DNA of 64,000 bases from Syntrophaceae bacterium. Its GTDB lineage: Bacteria; Desulfobacterota; BSN033; UBA1163. Position 1 is the stretch's first letter; each line of letters begins with the position of its first letter. Positions 41,915 to 63,560 of this stretch are shown one piece after another. The notes under the pieces are model-generated. The model ran no database searches and was not told the origin of the DNA. It saw only the letters and a program-made list of their open reading frames with translations. A program made the translations under genes and the position numbers. The DNA is taken from contig JACAEX010000041.1 of NCBI GenBank assembly GCA_013388635.1, forward strand, positions 1 to 64,000, in the 5' to 3' direction.

Positions 41915-41972
41915 GATGCTGAAAAGGCTTTTAGAGCGATCATTTTTTAATTAGGTGAAATATTCGAACCCT

Positions 41973-43253
41973 ATGAAGAGCTATCCAATCCCTTGCGGGA
42001 AGAAGACGATAAACCTGAAGATCCCCCGGGGTGTCCCTGTCGAATGGGTGGAGTCTCGAAAGATGGCTCCGATTCCTGACGTGAGAGCCGCGGTTAAGGA
42101 AGCCATCGCCCGTCCTATCGGAAGGCCTCGTCTCCGGGATCTGGTGAAACCCGGGCAGACCGTGGCGATCGTCGTCACAGACATCACCCGAAAGCTCCCG
42201 GAGGAGATCATCCTTCCCCTTCTCCTCGAGGAACTGATTTCAAGCGGCATTAAGAAGAAGGACGTGACAGCCGTCGTAGCCACAGGGACGCACCGACCCA
42301 ACACCCCGGAAGAGCTGAGAGAGAAATTTGGTCCTGTGGTCGATGAGATCGCCTTCATCAACCACGATCCACGCAATCGAGAAGGCCTGATCGACCTGGG
42401 GAAGACGCAGGGAGGGATCCCGCTCGTTTTCAATCGGGCGGTGGTCCAGGCCGATATTCGAATCTCGACAGGCGTGATCGAAACCCATCTCTTTGCCGGT
42501 TATAGCGGTGGTGTCAAAAGCATTGCGGTCGGGGTGGCGGGTGAAGAGACCATTGGAGCAACCCACAACTATGAGATGCTACAGCAGACAAGGCTTGGCG
42601 TGATCGAGGGGAATGAGTTTCGGAGATTTCTAACTGAAGCGACCCAGGCCTTAGGGCTCCACTTTATCGTCAATGTGGTTCAGACCGGTAAGAAGGAAGT
42701 GGTGAAGGTGGTTGCCGGAGATCCCGTGAAGGCATTTCACGAAGGGGTGAAGGTGGCGAGGGATCTCTACGAGGTGGGGATCGATCGGCCCGGAGAGATT
42801 GTGGTGAGCGGCGTGAGCTATCCAAAGAGCCGGGACCTCTACCAGGCAACCCGTGCAGCCAACGTGGTTGCTTTTGGCCCCAGGCCTGTGGTAGCAAAGG
42901 GAGGAGCGATTCTCATCCCAGCCCCTTGCGAGGATGGATGTGGCCATCCAGGGTATTGTGACATCATGAGAAGAGCCGAAGACATCGATCAGGTGATCGC
43001 CATCTCTCGAGAGGAAGGATTTGCGCCCGGTGAACAGAAGGCGCTGATCTTGGCATGGATTCTGAGACAGGCGAGGATTGTGATGACCGACTGTTCCCTT
43101 CCAGAGGAGACACTGAAGGGGCTTCATCTTGAATCAGCTCCAACCTTGCAGGAGGCATTCGATCGGGAGTTAAAGAAGAACCCAAAGGCAAGAGTCGTCC
43201 TCATCCCGGATGGACTCTTAACCCTGCCTGTTCTCAAATTGCACGGAGCATAG
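41973..43253 (+). CDS. LarA-like (DUF2088) nickel-pincer-cofactor enzyme family protein
   Basis: Start at ATG 41973 (MKSYPIPCGKKTINL) or an in-frame GTG 18 bp earlier; about 426 residues. The N-terminal DUF2088 domain shows VTDITRKLPEEIILPLLLEE, close to the LarA DxTRPxP region, then GTHRPNTPEEL, NHDPRN and FAGYSGGVKSI, where the Lys would carry the pincer cofactor. GATHNYEM follows. Characterised members racemise or epimerise 2-hydroxy acids such as lactate. The cofactor genes larBCE are not in the window. Followed by lyase and aldolase genes. Confidence 0.75.
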   Translation: MKSYPIPCGKKTINLKIPRGVPVEWVESRKMAPIPDVRAAVKEAIARPIGRPRLRDLVKPGQTVAIVVTDITRKLPEEIILPLLLEELISSGIKKKDVTAVVATGTHRPNTPEELREKFGPVVDEIAFINHDPRNREGLIDLGKTQGGIPLVFNRAVVQADIRISTGVIETHLFAGYSGGVKSIAVGVAGEETIGATHNYEMLQQTRLGVIEGNEFRRFLTEATQALGLHFIVNVVQTGKKEVVKVVAGDPVKAFHEGVKVARDLYEVGIDRPGEIVVSGVSYPKSRDLYQATRAANVVAFGPRPVVAKGGAILIPAPCEDGCGHPGYCDIMRRAEDIDQVIAISREEGFAPGEQKALILAWILRQARIVMTDCSLPEETLKGLHLESAPTLQEAFDRELKKNPKARVVLIPDGLLTLPVLKLHGA

Positions 43254-43312
43254 TCGAAAACGTAAAGAAATTGAACGCGATCCGCTTAGCATTCTCAGAA
43301 GGAGGGAAAAAA

Positions 43313-44200
43313 ATGGATTTTCAACCAAGAGGGATCATTCCTGCGATGGTGACACCGGTCACGCCGGATGGAAAGATCCATGTCGGAGCCTTACGAAAGC
43401 TCACCAATTACCTGATCGATGGAGGGGTTCACGGACTCTTCCCTGTGAGCACTCAGGGAGAATTCTATGCCCTGACCTTTGAAGAGAAGAAGAAGGTGAT
43501 GGAGGTTGTCATTGAAGAGACAGGAGGCCGGGTCCCGGTCTATGCAGGCACAGGCGCGGTGACCACCCGGGAAGCCATCTCCCTGACAAAGATGGCCGAG
43601 GCCATCGGAGTCAACGCAGTCTCTGTCATCACACCCTACTTCATCAAGCCGAGCGAGGGAGAGCTCCTCGAACATTATACCTCGATCGCGAAGTCCACAA
43701 GGCTACCGGTCCTCCTCTATAACAATCCTGGACGGACAGGGATCAATCTCTCTCCGGAATTCGTTGCCCGTGCGTCAAAGGTGGAGAACATCGTCGGCAT
43801 CAAAGACTCCTCCGGAGACCTGACGCTCACAGCAGAATACATTCGGAGGACGGACGAGAAGTTCTCCGTCCTTGCTGGCAGGGATACGCTCATCTACGGG
43901 ACCCTCTGCTACGGAGGAAAAGGCGCCATCGCTGCAACAGGCAATGTGGCCCCTAAGCTGATCGTTGAGATTTACGAGGCCTTTCAGGCCGGAGACCTGA
44001 AGCGAGCGCTCGATGCCCAGTTTCGTCTGGCTCCGCTTCGTCTGGCCTTTGACCTCGGGACCTTTCCGGTTGTGATTAAAGAGGCCCTTAATCTGATCGG
44101 GATCGAGGCCGGAGTGGGAATACCGCCGGTCGGAGGAATCAGTCCCAAGGCCAAAGAGGAACTGAAAGAAATTTTGAAAAATATGGGACTGTTGAAATAA
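43313..44200 (+). CDS. DapA/NAL-family class I aldolase or lyase
   Basis: The ATG at 43313 follows AAGGAGGG, preferred over a start 42 bp upstream; the product has 295 residues. It is a TIM barrel of the dihydrodipicolinate synthase/N-acetylneuraminate lyase family. GIIPAMVTPVTPDGKIH, GLFPVSTQGEFYALT (pyruvate carboxylate loop), LLYNNPGRTGINLSP with the conserved Tyr, and NIVGIKDSSGDL with the Schiff-base Lys are seen. True DapA is possible, but the setting between a LarA-like protein and an HpcH aldolase favours a catabolic 2-keto-3-deoxy-acid-type lyase. Confidence 0.85.
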   Translation: MDFQPRGIIPAMVTPVTPDGKIHVGALRKLTNYLIDGGVHGLFPVSTQGEFYALTFEEKKKVMEVVIEETGGRVPVYAGTGAVTTREAISLTKMAEAIGVNAVSVITPYFIKPSEGELLEHYTSIAKSTRLPVLLYNNPGRTGINLSPEFVARASKVENIVGIKDSSGDLTLTAEYIRRTDEKFSVLAGRDTLIYGTLCYGGKGAIAATGNVAPKLIVEIYEAFQAGDLKRALDAQFRLAPLRLAFDLGTFPVVIKEALNLIGIEAGVGIPPVGGISPKAKEELKEILKNMGLLK

Positions 44201-44202
44201 TT

Positions 44203-44375
44203 AAATCCGAAGCACGAAATTCGAATTTCTAAACAAATTCCAATGACCGAAATATAAAACTTAACGGCATTGATTGTTTGGAATTTGGACATTGATGAAT
44301 TCGTAAAAAGTCATTCCCCTGGATTTTGAGTCCGTTTCGGATTTCGATATTCGAATTTCGTATTTTCAGTTTCGG
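44203..44375. repeat. Inverted heptad array between lyase and aldolase genes
   Basis: AAATCCG, AAGCACG, AAATTCG, AATTTCT, AAACAAA, TTCCAAT, GACCGAA, ATATAAA run from 44203, 2 bp after the stop codon. The far arm GTTTCGG, ATTTCGA, TATTCGA, ATTTCGT, ATTTTCA, GTTTCGG ends at 44375, directly at the GGAGG of the next gene. Confidence 0.85.
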
Positions 44376-44383
44376 AGGTCAAT

Positions 44384-45154
44384 ATGGTTTGGGCAGGTTT
44401 GAGAAGGAGGGTGCTGGCAGGAGAGTCCGTCTATGGAACGATGATCCGGCAGGCCAGGGATCCAGGAGCTCCGGCTGTCTTTGCCGCTGCGGGATATGAC
44501 TTCGTCCTGATCGACATGGAGCATGGACCCTATAACATGGAGACCGTGGCAGATCTGATCAGAGGGGCTAAATCTGTTGGCATTGCACCCCTCATCCGAG
44601 TCCCTCGGCTGGAGACATTCTTCATCTCAAGGGTGCTCGATGCGGGTGCGGAAGGGATCATGGTCCCGATGACCTCCACGAGACAGGACGCGGAGACGAT
44701 CGTCCGTTACAGCAAATATACGCCTTTGGGACAGCGTGGGTATGGCGCTCAGTCAGGACAGACAGATTACAAACCACCGAAGGCGGCTCAGTTCATGAAA
44801 GAGGCCAATGAGCATACGCTCATCATCGCCCAGATCGAGACCAGAGAGGCGATCGAAAACATCGATGCCATTCTCGATGTCGAAGGCATTGATGTGGGCC
44901 TGATCGGCCCGAACGATCTCTCCATCTCCCTGGGAATCCCTGACCAGATGAGCTCAGAGATATTGCTCAAAGCCATTGAAAAGGTGGTTCAATCTGCAAA
45001 GGCAAAAGGCAAGGCCTCGGGGATTCACATCGCAAATATCGAGGCCATCAAGAGGTGGCGGGCAAAGGGGATGACCGTTTTGGCCTATTCGTCGGATCTC
45101 GGGTTTATGTACAATGCCTCCAAGTCGAGCCTCGAAGAGCTGAAACGACCCTGA
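44384..45154 (+). CDS. HpcH/HpaI-family class II aldolase
   Basis: Protein of 256 residues in a TIM barrel that binds a divalent metal and pyruvate enolate. GTMIRQARDPGAPAVFAAAG, DFVLIDMEHGPYN, DAGAEGIMVPM, the metal ligands Glu in AQIETREAIEN and Asp in GLIGPNDLSISLG, and the C-terminal helix are present. Relatives cleave 2-keto-3-deoxy-glucarate, 4-hydroxy-2-oxoheptanedioate or related acids to pyruvate and an aldehyde. With the preceding lyase and LarA-like protein it suggests hydroxy-acid breakdown. Confidence 0.87.
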   Translation: MVWAGLRRRVLAGESVYGTMIRQARDPGAPAVFAAAGYDFVLIDMEHGPYNMETVADLIRGAKSVGIAPLIRVPRLETFFISRVLDAGAEGIMVPMTSTRQDAETIVRYSKYTPLGQRGYGAQSGQTDYKPPKAAQFMKEANEHTLIIAQIETREAIENIDAILDVEGIDVGLIGPNDLSISLGIPDQMSSEILLKAIEKVVQSAKAKGKASGIHIANIEAIKRWRAKGMTVLAYSSDLGFMYNASKSSLEELKRP

Positions 45155-46051: not shown

Positions 46052-47218
46052 TCAGCTCTTGATTCCCATTCCAGCAGCAGCGAGGACGATCAGCTCCGTC
46101 AAGCCCAGCCCCCTCTCCCAGGCGCGATTGTAGAACTGTCTGTAACAGAGGGGGCAACAGGTGATGAGCGTCTCCGCACCTGTTTCGACGGCCTCTTGAA
46201 CACGGTCCTTTGCAATCTTTATGCTCAACTTCGGATAGACTAAATTGACCACCCCTCCTCCGCCGCAACACCAGGCGTGTTCTCGATTTCTTCTCATCTC
46301 CACCAGCTCAATTCCTGGTATCCTTCTGAGGATCTCCCTCGGAGGTTCGAAGATCCCTGCCTCCCTTCCCAATCGGCAGGGGTCGTGGTAGGTCACTCTC
46401 TTCTTGATCTGCTCTTGAAAAGAGAGCTTTCCTTCGTTCAAAAGGCGGAGAAGGAGCTCCGTGATATGAATCACCTTAAAAGGTTGCTTTCCTAAGATCT
46501 CTGGATAGTGGTGGTGGAAGGCATTGTAACAATCCGGGCAGGAGGTCAGGATCGTCTTCACCCCTGCCTCTTCAAACATCCTTCCGTTCTCCTCCATCAG
46601 TGCCTTGGCAGAGCAAGACCTTCCATTCCAGATTTGTGGGATGCCGCAGCAGACCTCTTCCTCACCCAGATAGGCCACCTCGATCCCTGCCTTCTTCAAA
46701 ATCTTGACCAGGGATCGAGCAATCTCTGGCCGGTCGTACGAAGTGGCACATCCTGGAAAGTAGAGAAGCTCCCCTCGCCTTGGCAAGCTGAGGCCCTCTG
46801 TCCACTGATTTCTCATCTTCTTGCCAAATCCGTAGGGATTCCCGTAGGCCTCGATATTGGAATCGATCTCGTCGAGGGCCTTCATTTTTCGAAGACCCTC
46901 TTGGTCGATCTCCCTCCTTTGACCACGAACGACTGAGGGCGTATCCACCTGGGTTGGGCAATGGGCCTTACAGTTATAACAACCAAGGCAGGTGTAGATC
47001 CTCTCCACCAGAGAATCTGAATATTCGATCCTTCCTTCAAGCAGTGCCCTGGCCACACCGATTCGGCCCCTCGCATAGGTCGTTTCAAATCCCAACTCCT
47101 CCCGGATGGGACAGATTCGGTAGGCACCTCCTAACACCAACTCCCTGCAAAACCCGCAACGAAAGCAGTGGTAGATCTCCTCTTTATAACGTTCCAGTTC
47201 GAAATGTCCTCTCTTCAT
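46052..47218 (-). CDS. Iron-sulfur CCG-domain oxidoreductase subunit (GlcF/LutA-like)
   Basis: Protein of 388 residues. Two 4Fe-4S motifs open it (CFRCGFC with CP ten residues later, and CLGCYNCKAHCP). Two cysteine-rich CCG domains follow (EEVCCGIPQIW and HAWCCGGGGVVN). Such subunits pass electrons from a flavoprotein dehydrogenase to quinones or a heterodisulfide-type partner. It overlaps the GlcD-like gene by 4 bp, so the two form a glycolate/lactate-oxidase-like complex. Confidence 0.85.
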   Translation of the reverse strand: MKRGHFELERYKEEIYHCFRCGFCRELVLGGAYRICPIREELGFETTYARGRIGVARALLEGRIEYSDSLVERIYTCLGCYNCKAHCPTQVDTPSVVRGQRREIDQEGLRKMKALDEIDSNIEAYGNPYGFGKKMRNQWTEGLSLPRRGELLYFPGCATSYDRPEIARSLVKILKKAGIEVAYLGEEEVCCGIPQIWNGRSCSAKALMEENGRMFEEAGVKTILTSCPDCYNAFHHHYPEILGKQPFKVIHITELLLRLLNEGKLSFQEQIKKRVTYHDPCRLGREAGIFEPPREILRRIPGIELVEMRRNREHAWCCGGGGVVNLVYPKLSIKIAKDRVQEAVETGAETLITCCPLCYRQFYNRAWERGLGLTELIVLAAAGMGIKS

Positions 47219-48591
47219 AATAACCCCGGATTGAGAATCCCATCAGGATCGAGTGCCTTCTTGATCTTTTCGTAGGCCTGATAGTAATTCCCGATCTTTC
47301 CTTTCCAGTATGGACTTAAATGGCCGATCCAATAGGGGCTGACCCCAAGGCCAAACATCAGCTCGCTGAGCTCCCAAACGTAGTCAATGATCTTCTGCCA
47401 CGCTTCTGAATTCGATTCATTACAGAAGAGGGCAACCGGGATGTTCATGGCATTCGTCTTCAAAAGACCTCCCAGGCTCCACCTGATCCCGAGTCGCTCG
47501 ACCTCTGCCTTTCTTGAAGCAAAGTAGTCAAGGATGGGAGTAGCCATTTCAGGGTACCTTTTGATCGGAATAAATCCCGCCACTTCGAGCCAACCAGGCC
47601 CTGCCTTTCCAAAGGCCTCTGCACGAGTGGTGAACCGTCCCTGATAGTAGCTCTTTCCAAACTCAGGGATCTCCTTGCCCTTTGCACGTCTCATCAGATC
47701 GAGGCCCAACCGGCCCTGTTCCTGAACCTCTGCCTTCGTTCCTTTAAGCATGAAGACGAGTCCCGCCCTCCCGGCTATCTCTTCGGGAACCGGATGGACG
47801 AAGATCCGGGTGTCATAAGGAATCCTATATGTTGCAAGGCCATGGAGCGCCTCAATGGCATCGTCCAGGCTTGAAAATGAGAAGGCAAAATAGTCCTCTG
47901 CCTCGTGAAGCGGATAGATCTTTAATGAAACTTCGGTGATGACCCCCAGTGTCCCATGCGAACCGATGAAGAGGCCGGCCATATCGATCCCATTGCAATC
48001 TCTGTCGACCATGAGATTGCCCGGGTTGGCTCCTGTCCCTGTTCTGATCATCTCGCCATCCGGCAGGATAACCTCCAGACCGAGGATCTGAGAACCGAGG
48101 CCTCCATACCGAGCTGCGCCCATGCATATGGCAGCCACTGCAATGGCGCCTCCGACCGTAGCCGAGGGCGCTGACCAGGGACCTTCCAGACCCAATTCCC
48201 AGCCCTTCCCCTGGAGGTATTCGATCACCTCGGTCCACGTAATCCCCGCTTCGACCAAGATCGACATCGTATCCTCATTCAGACTCAGAATTCTCCTCAT
48301 CCGCGTGAGATCGACCATGATCGAAGAGTCAACCAAAGGGATGGGAGCACCGCACATGCTCGAACCAGCCCCTCGCACCGTAACAGGCCTCTTCTCCCTT
48401 CTGACCAAACTGAAGAGTCGCTGGATCTGCTCCTTTGAGTTCGGTATGACAACATAATCCGGCAATTTAGCTGGCAAAGATCCTGCATCCCTCGAATAGC
48501 AGAGGAGTTCAAACTCTTCTTTCGAAACCCTCTCATTCCCAAAAATCTCAACCAACGTTTGGTACAACGTCTTCCCTCCTCTTATCCGCAT
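47215..48591 (-). CDS. FAD-linked 2-hydroxyacid dehydrogenase (GlcD-like)
   Basis: Protein of 458 residues in the VAO/PCMH flavoprotein fold. YVVIPNSKEQIQRLFSL and PVTVRGAGSSMCGAPIPL bind FAD pyrophosphate, GLEGPWSAPSATVGGAIA is the second FAD block, and DPDGILNPGLL ends the protein as in GlcD. Substrates of the family include glycolate, D-lactate, 2-hydroxyglutarate and similar acids. It overlaps the iron-sulfur subunit by 4 bp and touches the upstream gene by 1 bp, indicating one operon. Confidence 0.87.
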   Translation of the reverse strand: MRIRGGKTLYQTLVEIFGNERVSKEEFELLCYSRDAGSLPAKLPDYVVIPNSKEQIQRLFSLVRREKRPVTVRGAGSSMCGAPIPLVDSSIMVDLTRMRRILSLNEDTMSILVEAGITWTEVIEYLQGKGWELGLEGPWSAPSATVGGAIAVAAICMGAARYGGLGSQILGLEVILPDGEMIRTGTGANPGNLMVDRDCNGIDMAGLFIGSHGTLGVITEVSLKIYPLHEAEDYFAFSFSSLDDAIEALHGLATYRIPYDTRIFVHPVPEEIAGRAGLVFMLKGTKAEVQEQGRLGLDLMRRAKGKEIPEFGKSYYQGRFTTRAEAFGKAGPGWLEVAGFIPIKRYPEMATPILDYFASRKAEVERLGIRWSLGGLLKTNAMNIPVALFCNESNSEAWQKIIDYVWELSELMFGLGVSPYWIGHLSPYWKGKIGNYYQAYEKIKKALDPDGILNPGLL

Positions 48592-49445
48592 TATTTGCAG
48601 GCCTTGAGAATCTCAGAAATCTCTTCCTGGTCAAGCCGCACATAGTCCGCTTTCATCACATCTGCCAACATGTCCGAAGACCACACATCATAACCGGGAT
48701 GGGCTTCGAAGATCCACGTCTCCCAAGCCGGTTCGATCACCACATCAGGCGTGAAGAGCCACCCGATGTCAAAGACCACCTCGGGCTTCTTACCCATGAA
48801 GACCAGCTTTCCTCTATATTTTCCGCCCACGAGGTAGACATTCGGGCAGACATAGTAGATCTTAAAGCCTTCTCGATCCAATGCCTCTTTTGCAAACTTC
48901 GTAATGGCGTTGGGGTGGACGCTCGTGTGGACGTTGATGTGCAGATGGTTCGTCGTCGGCATCACCGGAAATTCAAGACCTTTGAGGAAATGATCCGATT
49001 TGAAATAGTCCCTCAGGGCCTTTTCTTCTTTCGACTTCACCCTCCGGAATGGAAATTGGCTATTGAACTGGTTGATGTACCAGCGATTCCAGATGAGAAG
49101 GTTGCAGCCTGATTCGCCTCCTTCGCATGCCCTCAGCCCGACCTCCTGGTTGAAGAACCACTGATAATCAAAGTGGGGTTTCCCCTTGGGCTCCACTCCG
49201 TGAAGGCTTCCCATGCCTGCCTTCGGGGCCATATGATCGATCTTCCGTCTCGATGGCCAGCCTTTCTTCTTGAAGTAACCCTTCATGATCGCTTCGAGAG
49301 AATCGGGATGCACCGATGTCTCGACATAGGCATGCATATGAGTTCCTTCGGGATCAGGGTCTTGGAGGGCCGCGCAGAGACGCCTCCAGTGGTCAGACTC
49401 TGCAAAGTAGTACTTCACCTCTTCGATCAACTTCCTGCGATCCAT
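48591..49445 (-). CDS. Unrecognised protein with two similar halves
   Basis: Protein of 284 residues that I do not recognise. It seems to be an internal duplication. Residues 35-63 begin THMHAYVETSVHPDSL and 166-194 begin NHLHINVHTSVHPNAI, sharing xHxHxxVxTSVHP. About 57 residues later each half has FDYQWFF (92-98) or FDIGWLF (225-231). Repeated His suggests two metal sites or a pseudo-dimer, but that is inference. No signal peptide or membrane helix. Its stop shares a base with the GlcD-like start, so it is probably in the same operon and metabolically linked. Confidence 0.6.
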   Translation of the reverse strand: MDRRKLIEEVKYYFAESDHWRRLCAALQDPDPEGTHMHAYVETSVHPDSLEAIMKGYFKKKGWPSRRKIDHMAPKAGMGSLHGVEPKGKPHFDYQWFFNQEVGLRACEGGESGCNLLIWNRWYINQFNSQFPFRRVKSKEEKALRDYFKSDHFLKGLEFPVMPTTNHLHINVHTSVHPNAITKFAKEALDREGFKIYYVCPNVYLVGGKYRGKLVFMGKKPEVVFDIGWLFTPDVVIEPAWETWIFEAHPGYDVWSSDMLADVMKADYVRLDQEEISEILKACK

Positions 49446-49507
49446 TTTTTCTCCTCCTCAGTGCAATTTGATCACCCCCACCCACCCTCTCCGTCAAAAT
49501 GACACCC

Positions 49508-49772
49508 CTCTCCCCTAAGAGACTGTCTCATAACTTGCCGGAAACTATCTCTGTTGCCGCACAGGAAAGGCGGTCAGGTGACGAAGCCTTAGGGCGGAAA
49601 CCTCTTATTCGCTCAGCTTCTGAGTTCCAAACCGATGAAAGGAATCGCATTTTCAACAAGCCCGATAACCCATAACTTTAAATGACCGCATCCTAAGGCT
49701 GAGGAGCCTGACTGCCTCTCCCACCCGGATCAGCCCCCTATCACGATTACGACACAGTCTCTTGTGGGAGAG
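49508..49772. mobile_element. Small non-coding element with terminal inverted repeats (MITE-like)
   Basis: CTCTCCCCTAAGAGACTGT at 49508-49526 is repeated in inverse orientation at 49754-49772 with 17 of 19 matches, including a perfect 10-bp core AAGAGACTGT. GAGACTGT ends are common in insertion sequences. The 227 bp between hold no convincing gene. The element fills most of the gap between the cupin gene and the duplicated-half gene. Confidence 0.6.
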
Positions 49773-49791
49773 CGTCAGGGTGAGGGGGGGA

Positions 49792-50148
49792 CTACTTTCG
49801 ATCGTAAGATCCTGGTTTGACCGGTGGGCTGAAGACGCTGACCAGGACCAAGGGCTCACTGCCCAATGTCTTGACACCGTGCTCGACGCCAGGCTCGGTG
49901 AAGACAGCGACCCCTGGTTCTAAGGGATAGATCTTTCCGCCGACCTCAGTCTCGCCCCGGCCTGAAAGAACATAGATGATCTCCTCCTCGGCTGGGTGGG
50001 CATGGGTTCCTGGATTGCTTCCCGGAGGGAAGCTGACCACGCCGAAGATCATGTTCTGACACCCCCCATTTTCCGGTCCGATCAACTTCTTCCAGACCCT
50101 TCCCGGCAGCGAAATCCCAGCCTCATCCTTTTCTCGCACGTAGTACAA
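49792..50148 (-). CDS. Single-domain cupin
   Basis: Protein of 118 residues forming one beta barrel. The first cupin motif is seen in GTHAHPAEEEIIYVLSGRGE (two His and a Glu as metal ligands, then the conserved Gly), and the second in PGVAVFTEPGVEHGVKTLG with the third His. Function may be sensing or isomerising a sugar or organic acid, or acting as a metal-binding accessory. It lies 70 bp after the TRAP large permease on the same strand. Confidence 0.8.
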   Translation of the reverse strand: MYYVREKDEAGISLPGRVWKKLIGPENGGCQNMIFGVVSFPPGSNPGTHAHPAEEEIIYVLSGRGETEVGGKIYPLEPGVAVFTEPGVEHGVKTLGSEPLVLVSVFSPPVKPGSYDRK

Positions 50149-50218: not shown

Positions 50219-51496
50219 TCAGTGAATCAGATTCGGCACAAAAAGCGTGACCTGTGGAAACAGGGTCATGATACTTAAGATTCCGATCATGATCAGGACA
50301 ATGGGAACAGAATTCAACGCAACCTTTTCCGTTGGAACTCCGGAGATGATCGATGAGACATAGAGGGAATAACCGACAGGAGGGGTCAACAGCCCAATGG
50401 ACATATTGACCACAAAAAGCATGGCAACGTGGAGCGGATCCAGTCCCAGAGCCTGACCCAGCGGCATCAAAATCGGCACAAAGATAATCGTGGCCACGAG
50501 GATATCGATCAGCAGACCGGTGAAAAGAAGGATGAGATTTAATACCATCAAAATGACAAACTTATTATTCGAGATCCCAAGCATAAAATCCCTGAATAAT
50601 TCAGGGACACCTTCATTTATAGAGATGTAAGAGAAGACCGAACCTGCACCCATGATGATCACTAACTTCGCCGATGCCTTTGCCGCTGTCAGCAATACTC
50701 TGGGGATTTGCACGACCGTCATTTCTCTGTAGACGAAAATGGCAACGATGAAGGAGTAGACCACGGCAATGATCGAGGATTCCGTGGGGGTGAAGACCCC
50801 GGTGACGATCCCTCCGACGACCACCACGGGTATCAGGATCGCCAGGACGGATCGCCTGAAAGCGGTCATGAGGTTGGTATGAGAGAAATGCGATTGGGAT
50901 CTGCCATAACCCTTATTCTTCGATATGATGTGACAGAAACCCATCAAGCTGAATCCGATCATCATCCCGGGAATGTAACCGGCTAAAAAAAGATCGAGCA
51001 GGGAAAGACCCGATGTCATGGAATAGATGACCATGGGAATGGAAGGAGGAATGATATTTCCGAGAGGGCCCGCAGTCCCCACCACTGCCGCGGAAAACTC
51101 TTTTGGATAGTTCTCCTTCTCCATGGACGGGACAAGGACAGAAGCCACGGCTGCGGTATCGGCCACTGCAGAACCTGAAATCCCTCCCATGATCATACCG
51201 GTTAAAACAGCCACCATGGAAAGACCGCCTTTAAAGTGGCCCACCAGGGCATTACAAAAATCGACAATCCGCTTCGATATCCCTCCCTGACACATGATCT
51301 CTCCGGCCAGGACAAACCCCGGAACAGCCAAGAGGACGAAGGAGTCCATCCCGATCATCAGTCGTTGGGCAACGATATGCAAAGGGAGGTTCCCCGCCAT
51401 GCATGCAAAGGCAGCGGTCAGACCAAAGGAAAAAAAGATGGGCAAACCGATGAAGATACAGAAGAAGAAAACGATGATCGCGGACAGGATCAACAT
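50219..51496 (-). CDS. dctM: TRAP transporter large permease (DctM), system 1
   Basis: The ATG at 51496 begins MLILSAIIVFFFC. The frame extends 66 codons further into dctQ, but that part is out-of-frame dctQ sequence. The protein has 425 residues and about 12-13 helices. GLPIFFSFGLTAAFAC, PGFVLAGEIMCQGGIS, GGISGSAVADTAAVASVLVPSM and GIVTGVFTPTESS are typical DctM blocks. It couples uptake of an organic acid to the sodium gradient with DctQ and the binding protein. It starts 5 bp after dctQ. Confidence 0.92.
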   Translation of the reverse strand: MLILSAIIVFFFCIFIGLPIFFSFGLTAAFACMAGNLPLHIVAQRLMIGMDSFVLLAVPGFVLAGEIMCQGGISKRIVDFCNALVGHFKGGLSMVAVLTGMIMGGISGSAVADTAAVASVLVPSMEKENYPKEFSAAVVGTAGPLGNIIPPSIPMVIYSMTSGLSLLDLFLAGYIPGMMIGFSLMGFCHIISKNKGYGRSQSHFSHTNLMTAFRRSVLAILIPVVVVGGIVTGVFTPTESSIIAVVYSFIVAIFVYREMTVVQIPRVLLTAAKASAKLVIIMGAGSVFSYISINEGVPELFRDFMLGISNNKFVILMVLNLILLFTGLLIDILVATIIFVPILMPLGQALGLDPLHVAMLFVVNMSIGLLTPPVGYSLYVSSIISGVPTEKVALNSVPIVLIMIGILSIMTLFPQVTLFVPNLIH

Positions 51497-51501
51497 CGAT
51501 G

Positions 51502-51990
51502 CTACTCCCTTGAGGAGGTCCCCCTCCCTCGAGCGATGATGGATTTGACCATCCACTCCAGAACGTAGAGCCCCATCAGCATACCACTCACCGGAATCGC
51601 CAGGTAAAGCCAGCCCATAGAAATGCCAAAACTTGGGGAAGAAGCCTCTGCCACAATGGGATAGATCTTCAACCCCTGCTGGATCATCACCCAACAGAAA
51701 GCGATCATCAGCAGACGGATGAAGTTGGATAAAAAGAATCTCAATCTCTCTGGTAGAAGGTCGACGAGAAACGTCATCTGGATGTGGCTCTGCTCACGGG
51801 TGACCAGGACGGCACTGAGCATGATCATCCAGATAAAGATGAACCGACTCAGCTCCTCAGACCAGGCAGGCGGACGATGAAATACGTAACGCATGACGAC
51901 CGCATAAAAAATGATGGCGACGATACCACCGATCAGTATTCGGGAGATCATCTCGATGACCATCTCGATGGTGTCTAAAAGTTTTTTCAT
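51502..51990 (-). CDS. dctQ: TRAP transporter small permease (DctQ), system 1
   Basis: Start at ATG 51990 behind GAGGGTG; an in-frame TTG 12 bp upstream overlaps that site. The product has 162 residues and four helices (about 14-34, 46-66, 84-106, 122-148). WSEELSRFIFIWMIMLSAVL is the conserved DctQ region with the Glu-Glu pair. Works with DctM and the substrate-binding protein. Confidence 0.88.
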   Translation of the reverse strand: MKKLLDTIEMVIEMISRILIGGIVAIIFYAVVMRYVFHRPPAWSEELSRFIFIWMIMLSAVLVTREQSHIQMTFLVDLLPERLRFFLSNFIRLLMIAFCWVMIQQGLKIYPIVAEASSPSFGISMGWLYLAIPVSGMLMGLYVLEWMVKSIIARGRGTSSRE

Positions 51991-52052
51991 CGTCACCCTC
52001 AAATTCCTGGGACGGGAATGGAGATCCCGTCCCAGGCGATCAATGGATCAAA

Positions 52053-53072
52053 CTACTTCTTCCTCACAGTCTTAATAAAGGCAAAGACTTCATCCATAAA
52101 CTCGCCTCCGATCTTGGGCCGGAACTGTTCATAAACGGGCTTCGTCTTATCCCGGAACTCCTCAAAGGCCTTCTGGCTCAGGGAATTCACTTTTACCCCC
52201 TTCTCCTCAAGGAGGCCCTGCGCCTTCCCCTCAAACTTCGCCTGCTCCTTTCTTGACCAGAGCAACGCCTCTGCAGCCGTGTCTTTGATCATCTTCTGTT
52301 CGTCAGGGCTGAAAGAATCGAAGAGCTTCTTGCTCATGATCAGTGGAGCGGTCTCATAGTAATGATTCGTCTGGGAAGCGAACTTGGCGAGATCATAGAG
52401 CTTGAGATGGTAGCCCAGACCATACGTCGTTGAAATTCCGTCCACCGTTCCCTGCTTCAAACCGATGAGGCACTCACTCCAGGCGATCGGCGTACCAATG
52501 GCTCCCATATAGGTCATCGTGGAGACATCCAGAGGGGTTTCCACAGTCCGGATCTTCAGACCTTTCAGATCCTTCGACTTTGTTATGGGACGAACATTGT
52601 TCCAAATCCCCCGGAAAGACCAGCTGGACCAACCCAGACCGACCAATCCTTTGTCCTCCAGCATCTTGAAGAGTTTCTGCCCCATCGGCCCGTCGAGAAA
52701 TGCATTGACCTCTTCATGGTTGTTAAAAAGATAGGGCATGGCCACCATGAAGTACTGCGGGATGAGATTGGCCAAGACCGATCCACTGACAATGCCCGCA
52801 TCGAGAGTGCCCAGCCGGCAACCTTCGATCATCTCACGGTCACCGCCCATCACGGCACGGCCGAGGACCTTGACGGTCAACTTCCCTCCGGATTTCTCTT
52901 CGACAATCGCTTTCCACTTGTCCAGACCTTGATGGATCGTCGTCTCCGGAAGGGCTACGGTGGCCACCCGGATCTCTTTGGCGACCACTGGCCCTGAAAT
53001 CGAAAAAGTGATGAGAAAGAAGAAACATAAACCCGTTACCCATAAATCCTTTGACGTTCTCTTGGTCTTCAT
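52053..53072 (-). CDS. dctP: TRAP transporter substrate-binding protein (DctP), system 1
   Basis: Periplasmic binding protein of 339 residues with a signal peptide ending near SGPVVAKE. RVATVALPETTIHQGLDKWK, LKGLKIRTVETPLDV (with the Arg that usually holds the carboxylate) and TTYGLGYHLKLYDLAK are DctP-family regions. The substrate should be a small carboxylate. Located 50 bp after the dehydratase and upstream of dctQM. Confidence 0.92.
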   Translation of the reverse strand: MKTKRTSKDLWVTGLCFFFLITFSISGPVVAKEIRVATVALPETTIHQGLDKWKAIVEEKSGGKLTVKVLGRAVMGGDREMIEGCRLGTLDAGIVSGSVLANLIPQYFMVAMPYLFNNHEEVNAFLDGPMGQKLFKMLEDKGLVGLGWSSWSFRGIWNNVRPITKSKDLKGLKIRTVETPLDVSTMTYMGAIGTPIAWSECLIGLKQGTVDGISTTYGLGYHLKLYDLAKFASQTNHYYETAPLIMSKKLFDSFSPDEQKMIKDTAAEALLWSRKEQAKFEGKAQGLLEEKGVKVNSLSQKAFEEFRDKTKPVYEQFRPKIGGEFMDEVFAFIKTVRKK

Positions 53073-53122: not shown

Positions 53123-54559
53123 CTAATCCTCGATGCCGGCCAGACGCTTCGCACAGTTCTTCTTGTAGTTGATATCCGACTCCCTGAAGATCGTGAGCCG
53201 GTGGGCCGCAGGTGATCCTCCGCCATGGATATCTGAGATCGTGTCCGCGCTCTCCATGGCCATCTTCTCAACGAGCCGCAGCATCTTGATCCTCTTCTCC
53301 ACCGGAACGCCCGAGGCGCCCTTCAGATACTTCTTCAGAAGCTCGCCGATGTCAGGGTTCTCAAAGTCCTTATCCGATGGGAGATCCGCGACAAACCCTC
53401 CTGCGATATCGATCATCAGCCGGGTGACCTCTGCCATCTCCCTTCCCTCATGAATCTTCGAGGCATTGGCCAGAACCGGATCGATGAAGTAGGTCCCGGA
53501 AGGCTCCTTCTTCCCCTCATAGGAGGCTGCCAGGCTGCAGCCATAAAGGGTTTCGGCCTTATGGATCATGTCGATCACCTTCTCCTTATGGTGGCTCACC
53601 TTTGTCGTACCGTTATAATCCATCATCATCAGGGCAGCGCCGGTCATGGCATCGATCTTCCCTGCCTTGCATCCGCCGTGGGACTGACGGTGAAACGCGG
53701 AGAACCGGCTCACCATCTCCGCCGCGAATTCGACCTCCCTGAACATGAAGACCCTTTCCCATGGAACCAGGACCTCGTCGAAGATCAGGGTCGGACAGTA
53801 TTTGCTGTAGCGGATATTTCCGCAGTCCACCCCTTCGATCTCACGGGTATCCATCGAGTTTCTGCCCACGACATGGATGAGGTTCTTCGTATCCGATGGA
53901 ATGGCAAAGGCCAGGGCATAATCCTCATCCCCTTTTCCCATTGCCCGGGTGGGGAGAACGATAATCTCATGAGCGCTGAGCGATCCGGTCTGATGGACCT
54001 TTGCCCCTTTGACAATGATCCCCTCTTTGGACTGGTCCACGACGCGGAGGTACATATCCTTGTCAGGCTGCTCGTGAGGACCCAGGCTCCGGTCTCCTTT
54101 GACGTCGGTGACGCTCGCATTTCCGGTCAGGTCGTTCTTCTGCACATATCTCAGGAAGTCCATGAAACGATCGTAGTAATGGGTCCCGTATTTCTTATCG
54201 ATGTCATAGGTGACGATCGAAAGCGTGGCCAGGCAGTCCAGGCCCGTGCACCGCTGATGGCAGGTGCCCACATACCCTCCCAGAATGCGGTTGATCTTCA
54301 CCCGCGCCACCAGATCCTCAATCGATTGGGGCGGTAGGGTGAACCGGTTGATCGGCTCTTTTATGAAAGGCGAGAGGGTCGTGATCAGATCCTTATACTT
54401 ATCGTTGCTGGCCAGCTCATACGTCGCCCCTGTGGCATTGATGCCGGCGCGAATGCGCGGATTATCGACCACGTTCTCAATCTTCTCACCAAACATATAG
54501 GCCGTCGGCTTCAGCCTTCTCAAACTTCTCACGTACTCCTCAAACGTCTTGATCGCCAT
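53123..54559 (-). CDS. 4-Hydroxybutyryl-CoA dehydratase/vinylacetyl-CoA isomerase-type enzyme
   Basis: The start at 54559 (GGAGGAGAAAG then ATG) gives 478 residues; the longer frame adds 18 unlikely residues. HpaB-family flavoprotein. Cys100 and Cys104 (TCHQRC) and His290 with Cys297 (AFHRQSHGGC) match in spacing the four 4Fe-4S ligands of clostridial AbfD (C99, C103, H292, C299). This separates it from the cluster-free hydroxyphenylacetate hydroxylases. The enzyme dehydrates 4-hydroxybutyryl-CoA to crotonyl-CoA by a ketyl-radical route; a related acyl-CoA substrate is possible. Upstream lie the Kor genes. Confidence 0.85.
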   Translation of the reverse strand: MAIKTFEEYVRSLRRLKPTAYMFGEKIENVVDNPRIRAGINATGATYELASNDKYKDLITTLSPFIKEPINRFTLPPQSIEDLVARVKINRILGGYVGTCHQRCTGLDCLATLSIVTYDIDKKYGTHYYDRFMDFLRYVQKNDLTGNASVTDVKGDRSLGPHEQPDKDMYLRVVDQSKEGIIVKGAKVHQTGSLSAHEIIVLPTRAMGKGDEDYALAFAIPSDTKNLIHVVGRNSMDTREIEGVDCGNIRYSKYCPTLIFDEVLVPWERVFMFREVEFAAEMVSRFSAFHRQSHGGCKAGKIDAMTGAALMMMDYNGTTKVSHHKEKVIDMIHKAETLYGCSLAASYEGKKEPSGTYFIDPVLANASKIHEGREMAEVTRLMIDIAGGFVADLPSDKDFENPDIGELLKKYLKGASGVPVEKRIKMLRLVEKMAMESADTISDIHGGGSPAAHRLTIFRESDINYKKNCAKRLAGIED

Positions 54560-54602
54560 CTTTCTCCTCCTTGTAGATTCAAGCCAGGCCTTGAATCTAA
54601 TT

Positions 54603-54681
54603 TCAGATTTCAAATTGCAGATTGAATTTTTTTCAATCTGAAATCTGCGATCTGAAATCTGCGATCTGAAATCTGCAATTA
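54603..54681. repeat. Inverted heptad array after the 2-oxoacid oxidoreductase gamma gene
   Basis: The left arm is TCAGATT, TCAAATT, GCAGATT (54603-54623). The right arm is AATCTGA, AATCTGC, GATCTGA, AATCTGC, GATCTGA, AATCTGC (54635-54676), its reverse complement. The stop codon of the gamma gene (54679-54681) follows directly. Confidence 0.85.
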
Positions 54682-55209
54682 ACTCAGTTGTAGGCCTCTC
54701 CGAAAGGCGTTCAGGTTCAGCGCAATCGCCTTCTTCGGAACGCTCATCTCAATCGCCTTCTCCATCGCTTCCACAGGGAGAAGACCGGTCCTCTTGATCA
54801 GGGCACCCAGGATGATCAGGTTGGCCACGACGGTGTTCCCCATCTCCTTATCGGCAATGCTCGTAGCCGGCACCGAAAGAATCTCATACTCCCCAGGCTG
54901 TATCCCCTTCACCAGATCGGAGTCGATCACCACCAACCCTCTCGGCCTGACCCGGCCGATATACTTTGGAAGGGCATCCTCAGCCAGCAGGATCAGGATA
55001 TCCGGCCTTCTCACCTGTGGGTCGGAGACAGGCTCTTCCGAGATGATCACCTCTGCCCTGGCTGAACCACCCCTCAGCTCCGAACTGTAGGACTGGGTTT
55101 GAACAGCCTTCTTCCCTCCAAACAGAGTGGCGCCGGTACCAAGGAGGATTCCAGAGAGGACCACTCCCTGTCCGCCCACCCCTCCGATCAGTATCTCCAC
55201 ACGGCTCAT
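54679..55209 (-). CDS. korC: 2-Oxoacid:ferredoxin oxidoreductase, gamma subunit
   Basis: Protein of 176 residues. EILIGGVGGQGVVLSGILLG at the N-terminus and SYSSELRGGSARAEVIIS are the conserved gamma-domain blocks. It helps bind CoA and completes the complex that oxidatively decarboxylates a 2-oxoacid to acyl-CoA with ferredoxin as acceptor. Overlaps the beta gene by 4 bp. The subunit set D-A-B-C is that of 2-oxoglutarate enzymes (Kor), but branched-chain 2-oxoacid types look similar. Confidence 0.88.
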   Translation of the reverse strand: MSRVEILIGGVGGQGVVLSGILLGTGATLFGGKKAVQTQSYSSELRGGSARAEVIISEEPVSDPQVRRPDILILLAEDALPKYIGRVRPRGLVVIDSDLVKGIQPGEYEILSVPATSIADKEMGNTVVANLIILGALIKRTGLLPVEAMEKAIEMSVPKKAIALNLNAFRRGLQLS

Positions 55210-56039
55210 TCAGATCCTCCTTTTGCCTTATTCTTCATCCTTTTCACCTCTTCCAACATCTCAGGTTTTTCGATGTCGACCAATTCCCCGACCACGATCT
55301 TTCCTCTCAATTCCTCCTCTGAAAGTTTTGCAGCCTCCTTGGGTGAGATGGAACGCTTCTTATAATCCTCCATCATCTGGACCGCACTTCCCACGCCCGT
55401 CTTTCTCCCGAACTGAATCGGACACTGAGAGAAGACCTCGATGAAGGCAAAACCCTTCTTCTGGATCGCCTTCTCGATGGAGCTGGTCAACTGCCTGGGA
55501 TGGAAGGTCGTCCAGCAGGCGACAAAGGAGGCCCCTGCAGCGATGACCAGCCTGGAGATATTGAAGGTATTCTCGACCGTGCCGTAGGGGGTGGTCGTCG
55601 TTCGAATACCCATGGGCGTTGTGGGAGCGGCCTGACCTCCGGTCATTCCATAGATCCCATTGTTGATACAGATGACGACCATCTCCACATTCCTCCGGGC
55701 ATTCTGGATCAGGTGATTTCCGCCGATCGCCACTAAGTCGCCGTCTCCGCTCACCACCATCACCTTCTTCTCCGGGAGGCCCATCTTGATCCCGAAGGCA
55801 AAGGCAATGGGCCTGCCATGAGTCGTGTGAAGCACGTCCGCATTGAAGAAGGGGCTGGGGATCCAGGCTGCACAGCCGATTCCTGAGACGAAGACGAAAT
55901 CGTCCAGGTCCATGCCGAGCCCGTCGATGGCCCGGAGGATGGACTGGGCCACGATCCCGTCTCCGCAGCCCGGGCAGAAGGTCGTGTGGGTAACCGAAGG
56001 TCTGATAAACCGGTGAAAGGGATGAACCAGCTCACTCAT
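55206..56039 (-). CDS. korB: 2-Oxoacid:ferredoxin oxidoreductase, beta (thiamine diphosphate) subunit
   Basis: Protein of 277 residues. CPGCGDGIVAQSILRAI is the N-terminal CxxC region, and VVSGDGDLVAIGGNHLIQNARRN the thiamine diphosphate-binding GDGD-N motif, followed by NNGIYGMTGGQ. This subunit binds ThDP. It lacks the three-cluster ferredoxin tail of pyruvate enzymes, consistent with the separate delta subunit. 4-bp overlaps on both sides show tight coupling. Confidence 0.9.
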   Translation of the reverse strand: MSELVHPFHRFIRPSVTHTTFCPGCGDGIVAQSILRAIDGLGMDLDDFVFVSGIGCAAWIPSPFFNADVLHTTHGRPIAFAFGIKMGLPEKKVMVVSGDGDLVAIGGNHLIQNARRNVEMVVICINNGIYGMTGGQAAPTTPMGIRTTTTPYGTVENTFNISRLVIAAGASFVACWTTFHPRQLTSSIEKAIQKKGFAFIEVFSQCPIQFGRKTGVGSAVQMMEDYKKRSISPKEAAKLSEEELRGKIVVGELVDIEKPEMLEEVKRMKNKAKGGSE

Positions 56040-57190
56040 TTTGAAACCTCCCGAATCTTTCTCAGAATATCTTCTGGATCCTGAATCTCCCCAACCAGCC
56101 TCGGGGGTAGAAAGGAGACCTCTGCAAAATGGGCTGCCTCCGCCTTAATGTAGGGATAGATTTGACCCAGATTGTTTTCTAAAACGATCACCTGTTTGGC
56201 CTTTCTCGCCATCTTCTCGATCTCCTCACCCGGAAAGGGCCAGACCGTAATCAACCGCAGGGTTCCAACCGGGATCCCTTCCTTTCTCGCCTGAGAGGCA
56301 GCCGTGGCTGCTGCCCTGGCCACAGCGCCGTAAGAGACGAGGACGATCTCCGCACCCTCATAGTCCCGTTCCACGATGGTGATCTCCTCTTTATGCTTAA
56401 GAATCTTATTGCTCAACTTCCGGATGAACTTGTCCAGTGCAGAGATATCGATCAGATTGCGCTTTCCATATTCGTCATGACAGGAACTGGTGACGTGGGC
56501 CTTAAATCCCTTTCCGAAGATCGGCATGGGAGCCACATCCTCGTCGAGAAACCCTCTGATCTTTTGGGGATCTGTCCCCGATTCAGGGATCTTTCGATAG
56601 ACCGTCCGGATCTTTTCAGGCTCCGGGATGATCACCTCCTCTCGCATATGTCCCACAAAGGCGTCCGAGAGGATAAAGACCGGAGTCCGATAGGTCTCTG
56701 CATAATTGAAGGCGATGACCGTGTGATCGAACATCTCCTGGGGTGAAGAGGGGCAGAGGGCGATGATCTCATAATCACCATGGGAACCCCTTCTTGCCTG
56801 AACCATATCGCCCTGCACGCCAACCGTGGGCATGCCTGTCGTCGGAGCCCCTCTCTGGACATTGACGATCACACACGGTGTCTCCACGCCCACCGCGAAA
56901 CCGATATTCTCAAGCATCAGGCTGATCCCCGGACCAGAGGTGACGGTCATCGCCTTTCTGCCTGCCCAGGAGGCGCCGATCACCGCTGCAATTGCGCTGA
57001 TCTCATCCTCCATCTGAAAGAAACCGCCCCCTACCTGCGGCAATCTCTCTGCCAACCGGTTGGCTATCTCCGTGGCTGGCGTGATCGGATAACCTGCTGT
57101 GAACTCGCATCCGGCTGCAATCGCTCCCTCTGCGCAGGCCACATTGCCCATCATAAAATATCTCCCTGTGAGGACCCGTTTCTCGTTCAT
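56036..57190 (-). CDS. korA: 2-Oxoacid:ferredoxin oxidoreductase, alpha subunit
   Basis: Protein of 384 residues, the normal KorA/VorB alpha length. GNVACAEGAIAAGCEFTAGYPITPATEI is the N-terminal pyrimidine-binding block (shown in part), TVTSGPGISLMLENIGFA a second, and VNVQRGAPTTGMPT a third. The C-terminal transketolase-like domain ends in VLENNLGQIYPYIK. Overlaps the ferredoxin-subunit gene and the beta gene by 4 bp each. Confidence 0.9.
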   Translation of the reverse strand: MNEKRVLTGRYFMMGNVACAEGAIAAGCEFTAGYPITPATEIANRLAERLPQVGGGFFQMEDEISAIAAVIGASWAGRKAMTVTSGPGISLMLENIGFAVGVETPCVIVNVQRGAPTTGMPTVGVQGDMVQARRGSHGDYEIIALCPSSPQEMFDHTVIAFNYAETYRTPVFILSDAFVGHMREEVIIPEPEKIRTVYRKIPESGTDPQKIRGFLDEDVAPMPIFGKGFKAHVTSSCHDEYGKRNLIDISALDKFIRKLSNKILKHKEEITIVERDYEGAEIVLVSYGAVARAAATAASQARKEGIPVGTLRLITVWPFPGEEIEKMARKAKQVIVLENNLGQIYPYIKAEAAHFAEVSFLPPRLVGEIQDPEDILRKIREVSK

Positions 57191-57439: not shown

Positions 57440-58405
57440 TCATCTCTTCAGCTTAGGTTGGTTCACGGGATGGATCGGAGCCTTTCCTTCCAGAACCCTG
57501 AGCACATCCTCTGCCACCAGGCTCATCCTCCTCAGGGCCTCGTCCGTATGGGCGGCCATGTGAGGCGTGCCGATAAAATTTTCGAGCTCGAACAGAGGAT
57601 GGTCCTTCGGGGCCGGCTCGACTTCGTAGACGTCCGAAGCAGCTCCTGCGATCCTTCCCTCTTTCAAAACCGTATAGAGGGCCTTCTCTTCCCATATCGA
57701 CCCCCGGGCGAGATTGATGATGAAGGCAGACGGTTTCATCAGACCGAATTCTCTCGCTTTCAGAATGCCTCTGGTTTCAGGGAGCATCGGGAGATTGATC
57801 GATACGTAATCGGATTGGGATAGGAGCTCGTCGAGACTTACCTTCGTCGCCTTGATCTCCTTCTCCACCTCCTCATAGCGAAGCGCATCGTAATAGAGGA
57901 TCTTCATGTCAAAGCCTTTATGACCGATGCGAGCGATCGCCCTTCCGATCCGGCCAAAACCGAGAATGCCGAGGGTCTTTCCATGGAGCTCTCTCCCGAT
58001 ATATTCGTAACGTGCCTCAAACCGACCCTCCCTGAGAGCTATATCCCCCTTCTTCAGCATCTTCGAAAGCATCAGTGCCAGACCGAAGAAGTGCTCTGCC
58101 ACAGAGATATCGTTCGCATCCGGCGTATTGACCACCCATATCCCCTTCTCCGTAGCAGCTTCGAGGTCGATATTCTCCACACCCACCCCATGCCTTCCGA
58201 TGACCTTCAGCCTGGGAGCGGAATCGATCACCTTCCGGCTCGCCCTTCCATTGGCCCGGATGATGATCCCGTCCATTTCCTCGACTTCCCTGATCAACAC
58301 AGCCTCGTCAAAAGAGCTTGCGAATGAGATATCTGCCTTCTCCCTTAGGAGGGCCTTTCCAACTTCATGCATGTCTTCATAGAGCAGAATCCTGAAACGT
58401 TTCAT
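57440..58405 (-). CDS. D-2-hydroxyacid dehydrogenase (SerA-like)
   Basis: Protein of 321 residues. The NAD-binding loop is GILGFGRIGRAIARIG (GxGxxG). Catalytic Arg is in INLARGSIWEE, Glu in VYEVEPAPKDHPL and His in GTPHMAAHTDEA. It lacks the ACT regulatory domain of full-length phosphoglycerate dehydrogenase. It should interconvert a D-2-hydroxyacid and a 2-oxoacid, which would feed the adjacent 2-oxoacid oxidoreductase. 2 bp after the racemase-fold gene. Confidence 0.85.
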   Translation of the reverse strand: MKRFRILLYEDMHEVGKALLREKADISFASSFDEAVLIREVEEMDGIIIRANGRASRKVIDSAPRLKVIGRHGVGVENIDLEAATEKGIWVVNTPDANDISVAEHFFGLALMLSKMLKKGDIALREGRFEARYEYIGRELHGKTLGILGFGRIGRAIARIGHKGFDMKILYYDALRYEEVEKEIKATKVSLDELLSQSDYVSINLPMLPETRGILKAREFGLMKPSAFIINLARGSIWEEKALYTVLKEGRIAGAASDVYEVEPAPKDHPLFELENFIGTPHMAAHTDEALRRMSLVAEDVLRVLEGKAPIHPVNQPKLKR

Positions 58406-58407
58406 CC

Positions 58408-59073
58408 TTATCCCTCGGAGGCCTTAATCATTGCCCTTAATTTCTCCATCAGAAGGGATGGGCTTGAAATCACGGGGACGGTCACCTGTTGACCCAGGGG
58501 CCATGCGAGTCTTGCCATGGAGCCCTGGGCCAAAACGAGGACGTCCACCTCCCGTGACAGTGCCTTCGCCTTCTCCAACACCATTCGATCATGTCTCTCT
58601 GTATCTCCTTGAAGGATGGCCTGGAAGGCCTCTTCACATAGAGCCGTCGAAATGGAGATCTCTTTCCCCGCTTCCGATGCCTTCTCTTTCAGCAGCCGCG
58701 ATGTCGGCTCCAATGTCGTTGCGACCGTGGCCACGATCCCGATTCTTCTCCCTTTCTTCACCGCATCCTCTGCCATCGGCTCATCGATCTTCAATACCGG
58801 CCGGTTCACGAATCTCTTTACCACGTCAACAGCGGGCGAGGTGCTTGAGCAAGTAAAAATAATGATATCAGCCCCAGCCTCTTCCACAGAGACGGCATGA
58901 TGGCATAACCTCCGGATCACCTGGGGGGTTATCTCCCCTGCCTTCATAAAATCGATGAGGACGGATTCATCCCAGATGTGGAAGGCCCTGACCGGGAGAC
59001 CGAAAGTGTTCAATTCCCTCTTGATCACTTCCACCATCATCCAGGCGGTATGGATGAAACCGAGCGTCTTCAA
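58408..59073 (-). CDS. Asp/Glu racemase-fold protein lacking the second catalytic Cys
   Basis: Protein of 221 residues. The first catalytic Cys is at 75 in IIIFTCSSTSPAVD. In the second half, where a racemase would have its other Cys, the sequence is LVLAQGSMARL with Gln at 183. A two-base racemase mechanism is therefore unlikely; a decarboxylase or isomerase using a single Cys (as in arylmalonate decarboxylase) is possible. It lies between a second enzyme of the same superfamily and the hydroxyacid dehydrogenase. Confidence 0.7.
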   Translation of the reverse strand: MKTLGFIHTAWMMVEVIKRELNTFGLPVRAFHIWDESVLIDFMKAGEITPQVIRRLCHHAVSVEEAGADIIIFTCSSTSPAVDVVKRFVNRPVLKIDEPMAEDAVKKGRRIGIVATVATTLEPTSRLLKEKASEAGKEISISTALCEEAFQAILQGDTERHDRMVLEKAKALSREVDVLVLAQGSMARLAWPLGQQVTVPVISSPSLLMEKLRAMIKASEG

Positions 59074-59102
59074 GAATCACCTCTCCTACGATTCATGCGG
59101 CA

Positions 59103-59885
59103 TCAAACCCTCGGGACCTTCCGGAGCAGCTGTCCATATCCCTCGATCGGATCGTTGATCTTGAGGAGCTTCATCAGATGCCAGGCCGTAGCCTGGTTGG
59201 ATGCGACGACTGGTTTTCGGGCATCCTTCTCGATCTCCTCGATCACGTCACTACACCGGAAATTGGTACAGGTGATGAAGATGCCATCGGCCTCGGGCAC
59301 GACCGCCTTCATCGCGATCTGGTAGGCCTGGGAAGGTTTGGTCGCGCCTATCTCATGGAGATCCTCGATCTGCAGGCCTGCCACCTTCAGGACTTTAAAT
59401 CCCGAAGCTTCATAAAACTCCTTAAATTTCTGACTGATCTCATCGATGTACGGACCCGCGATGACGATCTTCTTAAACCCCATAAATCTCATCGCCTCCT
59501 CCGCAGCCGTCGCGGTCGTGGTGCAGGGAATCCCCTTGCTGTTGGACTGCATGGCCTCAATCTCTTTCTTATCCCAACCCGGTCCTCCGACGAGGCTCCC
59601 TGCCGTACAGGCAAAGGCAATCGCACTGTTATTCCCAAGAAGAGGCGAGGACATGCCTTCTGCGAGGAGACCGGCAGGCTCTGGCAGCCTTGCGCTCAGT
59701 TTGGAACACTCGCTCACATTCACCACCGGCTCCATATGGATACGGGTCTCCCGTACCTGAACATAGGGAGGCAACATTCTGCAGATCTCCGGGGTTGGAT
59801 TGAGGTTGGGTCCCACCACAATCAGGCCCACTCTTGCCCGATATCCGTATGGCACCCCATATGCTTCTGGATCTCTGTAAATCAT
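59103..59885 (-). CDS. Maleate isomerase/arylmalonate decarboxylase-like protein
   Basis: The ATG at 59885 sits 9 bp after AAAGGAGG and is preferred over starts 9 and 24 bp upstream; the product has 260 residues. Two Cys blocks are present: AFACTAGSLVGGPG and FITCTNFRCSD, as in maleate cis-trans isomerase. GYRARVGLIVVGPNLNPTPE is the usual N-terminus. Maleate isomerase makes fumarate; other members decarboxylate substituted malonates. Gene order TRAP transporter, this gene, second racemase-fold gene suggests a shared dicarboxylate substrate. Confidence 0.75.
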   Translation of the reverse strand: MIYRDPEAYGVPYGYRARVGLIVVGPNLNPTPEICRMLPPYVQVRETRIHMEPVVNVSECSKLSARLPEPAGLLAEGMSSPLLGNNSAIAFACTAGSLVGGPGWDKKEIEAMQSNSKGIPCTTTATAAEEAMRFMGFKKIVIAGPYIDEISQKFKEFYEASGFKVLKVAGLQIEDLHEIGATKPSQAYQIAMKAVVPEADGIFITCTNFRCSDVIEEIEKDARKPVVASNQATAWHLMKLLKINDPIEGYGQLLRKVPRV

Positions 59886-59910
59886 TCCTGACATCCTCCT
59901 TTCTCTCACT

Positions 59911-61703: not shown

Positions 61704-61771
61704 CTCTCCCCCTCAAAAGGTAAAGGGTAGGTCCCCTTGACCAAAGAACCTACCCGAGTGGAACGAAGCGA

Positions 61772-62785: not shown

Positions 62786-62803
62786 ACCGTCTACCTCCTT
62801 CTT

Positions 62804-63526: not shown

Positions 63527-63560
63527 AGATTTGGTCCCCCGGTGGCCGGGCTGAATTTTA

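Follow-up and report, generated by a model that had tools for sequence, protein, structure and literature searches.

The window analysed here is the whole 64,000-nucleotide stretch of contig JACAEX010000041.1 from a Syntrophaceae bacterium. It carries, on its minus strand, a gene for a histidine-rich protein of two modules, and the features around this gene are the following.

46052-47218, minus strand: GlcF-like iron-sulfur protein, not kept beside the two-module gene elsewhere
47215-48591, minus strand: GlcD-like FAD oxidase, overlapping the two-module gene by one base; neighbourhood not conserved
48591-49445, minus strand: gene of the two-module His protein, 284 aa, supported by its reading frame and orthologues
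48678-49022, minus strand: module B, residues 142-256, with HxHxxVxTxxHP at 167-178 and VFDIGW at 224-229
49086-49430, minus strand: module A, residues 6-120, with HxHxxVxTxxHP at 36-47, GSLHG at 79-83 and PHFDYQW at 90-96
49470-49791, minus strand: spacer between cupin and two-module gene, bearing a dispersed multicopy repeat
49792-50148, minus strand: cupin (PF07883), 118 aa, directly upstream of the two-module gene
50219-51505, minus strand: TRAP transporter DctM, conserved near the gene in other loci
51502-52002, minus strand: TRAP transporter DctQ, its order conserved in three other loci
52053-53072, minus strand: TRAP substrate-binding protein DctP, 66-71% identical in three other loci
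53123-54613, minus strand: HpaB-family flavoprotein with CHQRC and H-x6-C, 74-75% identical in two other loci
54679-57190, minus strand: 2-oxoacid:ferredoxin oxidoreductase (KOR) genes gamma, beta and alpha, present in locus G630, with alpha also in G058

At 48591-49445 the plus-strand frame is broken by a stop and the minus-strand frame is open, with a Shine-Dalgarno-like gaggagg ahead of its ATG. The gene is considered real because intact orthologues occur in several genomes. Translation of the minus-strand frame placed the two His motifs exactly where an earlier note on this DNA had put them (THMHAYVETSVHP at residues 35-47 and NHLHINVHTSVHP at 166-178), and the trailing FDYQWFF (92-98) and FDIGWLF (225-231) begin 57 and 59 residues after the motif starts, close to the distance of about 57 residues that it gave.

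The same note had described two similar halves, and this similarity proved to be far above chance. The best half-against-half BLOSUM62 local score is 84, compared to 28.2 ± 4.7 for shuffled sequences (0 of 1000 shuffles as high), and hhalign comparison of half profiles built from seven sequences yielded 98% probability with E-values of 2e-12 to 9e-13. The duplication is found independently in a homologue from Sinorhizobium meliloti that is only about 40-41% identical to the window's protein (91 versus 28.4 ± 4.8; 0 of 1000 shuffles). Judged by sequence, the halves of the two-module protein are homologous, and the repeat unit is longer than first described, beginning at YF-x-S-D-H (approximately residues 13-19 and 147-152).

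We found no match to the protein or its profile in Pfam, NCBIfam or PDB sequence searches, in agreement with the earlier description of an unknown family, and no relative in the viral and phage collections. Across 59 genomes, a module profile picked only the known genes above noise, and single-module relatives were absent. A weak plasmid match to a half query was rejected as chance, its frame being adenylate-cyclase-like.

Beyond the window's own genome, orthologues (73-79% identical) turned up in just five, roughly 1% of the sample: a Desulfobacterales MAG, CP070746 (L001, 75%), G058 (73%), G019 (78%, spread across two contigs), G630 and G768. The one homologue found beyond sulfate-reducer-type genomes lies at an unannotated place on the S. 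meliloti plasmid NZ_CP146207.1 (L006 9968-10852). Three carriers, including the window, were found among 395 sampled genomes of the phylum, three among 390 genomes of L001's class and the same three among 341 genomes of its order, while 0 of the 16 same-family genomes searched has the gene. The distribution is patchy, and horizontal spread is likely. The G768 copy looks broken because 100-N scaffold gaps cut the gene (L019 9146-9245 and L020 9542-9641), which makes its appearance an assembly matter; the gaps also leave its two pieces far apart on one scaffold, suggesting a wrong scaffold join.

The conserved partner of the two-module protein is the cupin and not the GlcDF-like oxidase. The earlier note held the gene to be locked into an operon with such an oxidase, and by position in the window this is correct, as the stop codon of the two-module gene and the start codon of GlcD overlap in TAATG; the arrangement is not conserved, however, and the regions fetched around the other two-module genes contained no counterparts of GlcD, GlcF or DUF6282. 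The cupin is found immediately upstream of the two-module gene in all six Desulfobacterota-type loci (so called because L001 is labelled as Desulfobacterales), at 70-79% identity. On the plus strand at 41955-45154, genes for LarA-like (nickel lactate racemase family), DHDPS-like and HpaI-like aldolase proteins point towards the operon's GlcDF/DUF6282 end, in convergent orientation.

TRAP transporter genes precede the cupin in four of the six loci (the window, G058, G630 and G768; DctP and DctM 66-71% identical). An OYE-type reductase is encoded upstream in L001, G058, G630 and G768, and the HpaB-like flavoprotein is present in the window, G058 and G630. L001 and G019 instead carry an acetamidase/formamidase and a peptide-type ABC transporter, and the S. 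meliloti gene is flanked by an NMT1-type ABC transporter and by a PCC-domain protein with a 2-hydroxyacid dehydrogenase; 2-hydroxyacid dehydrogenases occur in the window, in G019 and in the S. meliloti locus. Farther upstream, at 57440-63598, the window encodes a second TRAP transporter, proteins of the arylmalonate decarboxylase (AMDase) and Asp/Glu racemase families, a 2-hydroxyacid dehydrogenase and a GntR regulator; G630 and G768 also have the AMDase-like gene and the TRAP genes.

The HpaB-like protein has a C-x3-C at residues 118-122 and an H-x6-C (HRQSHGGC) at 308-315, the spacing of the iron-sulfur ligands in the [4Fe-4S] flavoprotein 4-hydroxybutyryl-CoA dehydratase. Together with the KOR genes, this ligand spacing suggests a route from a 2-oxo acid to an acyl-CoA that is then dehydrated or reduced. 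Since the neighbours vary between loci, the substrate class rests on the shared flavour of the genes rather than on a fixed pathway. Literature searches returned no description of this gene cluster. An anaerobic benzene 'Magic' cluster likewise pairs Glc-like flavoproteins with an Fe-S protein, with no apparent tie to the two-module gene (PMC13101534).

Aligning modules A and B in nine rows, we found HxHxxV....HP and FDxxW in every module; the invariant columns comprise F-x-S, H, H, V, H, P, two or three G, F, D and W. Across seven homologues, neither module varies at H36/H167, H38/H169, H46/H177 or D93/D226; these homologues are few and, S. meliloti apart, too alike for weighing catalytic residues. 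Because these four positions are invariant in both modules, the suggestion of a pseudo-twofold metal protein is plausible. At 41% identity, His is retained at 9 of 13 positions, somewhat above expectation (p = 0.03, uncorrected).

We compared predicted structures and profiles with known folds. The single-sequence fold of the full-length protein reached a pLDDT of 34. An AlphaFold2 model of half B, with an alignment of four module rows (two modules of two species), yielded a beta-alpha-beta-beta-beta arrangement at pLDDT 56 and pTM 0.55 (strand 27-32, helix 37-50 and strands 57-65, 68-76 and 82-90). Because these rows mix both halves, the structural equivalence of the halves rests on the sequence duplication. 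The predicted order of elements is that of the vicinal-oxygen-chelate (VOC) module (PMC3143149). A Foldseek search with this low-confidence half model returned as its best match the glyoxalase/bleomycin-resistance protein 3rri (E = 0.008; no match was as good as E = 0.001), and VOC proteins made up about 14 of the top 50, with TM-scores of approximately 0.2-0.4 and high rmsd. By TM-score, complex I 30-kDa subunits matched this model as well or better (0.34-0.52); they were rejected, as the PF00329 profile comparison was no better than a reversed control. With no Pfam match, no significant Foldseek match and an hhalign probability below 1% against 24 VOC (PF00903) sequences, again no better than the reversed control, VOC membership is not established. 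Reversed profiles also served as control for the DOPA dioxygenase comparison described below, which likewise lent no support.

Two further folds were set aside. The 2H phosphoesterases need two H-x-[ST]-hydrophobic motifs, and both motifs are H-x-H in all homologues. The PTPS-type HGHxY strand has no helix after it, unlike the first strand modelled here.

Starting from the observed duplication, the invariant residues and the linkage to cupin and TRAP genes, our preferred reading is a two-module metalloenzyme, VOC-like in mechanism, that acts on a 2-oxo or 2-hydroxy acid. We infer its fold, metal, substrate class and reaction, and assign the reading a tentative probability of about 0.35. Tandem duplication of a single beta-alpha-beta-beta-beta-like module would have produced a probably cytosolic enzyme whose putative metal ligands in each module are the His pair of the first strand (H36 and H38; H167 and H169) and the final strand's Asp (D93; D226); the helix opens with a third His (H46; H177). 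The two modules would close up against one another in the manner of glyoxalase I and other VOC enzymes, and one or two divalent metal ions could hold the vicinal oxygens of the acid during an oxygen-independent isomerisation, epimerisation, cleavage or hydration. The proposed route would begin with TRAP uptake, pass through the cupin and the two-module protein and continue to KOR, the HpaB/4-hydroxybutyryl-CoA-dehydratase-like flavoprotein and the old-yellow-enzyme reductase, so that the two-module protein would act ahead of the acyl-CoA steps. In broader terms, the locus probably serves the breakdown of an imported organic acid by a metal-using enzyme.

Several features are shared with glyoxalase I and the VOC family (PF00903): two tandem modules, the predicted order of elements, and in each module a first-strand His and a last-strand acidic residue, which are 55-59 residues apart here and 51 apart in E. 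coli glyoxalase I by its ligand numbering. Unlike VOC proteins, each module has two first-strand His and a third conserved His, Asp replaces Glu and an extra N-terminal segment is present. H46 and H177 would sit far from the first-strand His in a VOC module, which speaks against the VOC-like reading, as do the PF00903 profile result, the missing similarity in sequence and the Foldseek result, to which complex I 30-kDa subunits are comparable. The toxoflavin-degrading enzyme TxDE sets a precedent, as it has a VOC fold but no detectable sequence identity, and it binds Mn(II) through one His and two Glu; our comparison with it is by description only, and its reaction is oxygen-dependent, unlike the step proposed here (PMC3143149).

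A two-module metalloenzyme of new architecture, outside both VOC and the known metal folds, could act in the same route, and we regard it as unlikely but still a serious contender. It would account for the absence of family, PDB and profile matches and of a significant structural match; these absences may stem merely from a shallow alignment, however, and the topology of the half model is a known one. The conserved His, Asp, Asn and Trp would fit equally well with an enzyme that uses no metal, such as a decarboxylase, tautomerase or hydrolase whose His are acid-base groups and carboxylate ligands, but three His and one Asp repeated in each module are more ligands than acid-base catalysis needs, and we consider such an enzyme improbable. 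Transport genes lie close by in every locus (TRAP, peptide-type ABC or NMT1-type ABC), as would befit a solute binder, a sensor or a helper of the neighbouring oxidoreductases; we give such a non-enzymatic role slightly poorer odds again, as the near-absolute conservation of polar residues points to catalysis, and inspection of the sequence by eye reveals neither a signal peptide nor a DNA-binding part.

Members of the DOPA 4,5-dioxygenase family (PF08883; 2PEB, 2NYH) have the same HxHxY first strand and a later H...P...(Y/F)Q..F strand. That the modules are divergent relatives of this family is the least probable reading: the likeness by eye (HMHAYVE / HAHVYFD and LHGVEPKGKPHFDYQWFF / FHERPVGPHPMWSYQLAF) and the best hhalign match of module A, in register on its first motif, amount to a single short stretch (12 columns, probability 6%) where module B does not align, the family is single-domain and not duplicated, no member was matched in the window's genome or the Pfam scan, and the catabolic route looks anaerobic.

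A stronger version of the two-module metalloenzyme reading is doubtful, namely a new family with two equivalent metal sites that is paired with a dedicated cupin and takes an imported 2-oxo or 2-hydroxy acid through a reaction that needs no oxygen and has yet to be described. The two-module family, absent from current libraries, would gain a name and a signature (FxS...HxHxxVx4HP...FDxxW, twice), the cupin as a testable partner, and a setting in a little-studied, probably anaerobic catabolic cluster with TRAP uptake, a 4-hydroxybutyryl-CoA-dehydratase-like flavoprotein and KOR. If the fold is VOC-like, it would be one more VOC fold out of sequence reach.

The distance between the cupin and the two-module gene is 346 bp in the window only, compared to 37-58 nt in the other loci. 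The repeat inserted in this spacer is non-coding and approximately 230-320 bp long; the genome has roughly a dozen other copies of it, of which the long ones, in several places, are 78-90% identical. By eye, its ends have an inverted-repeat, MITE-like look (aagagactgt...).
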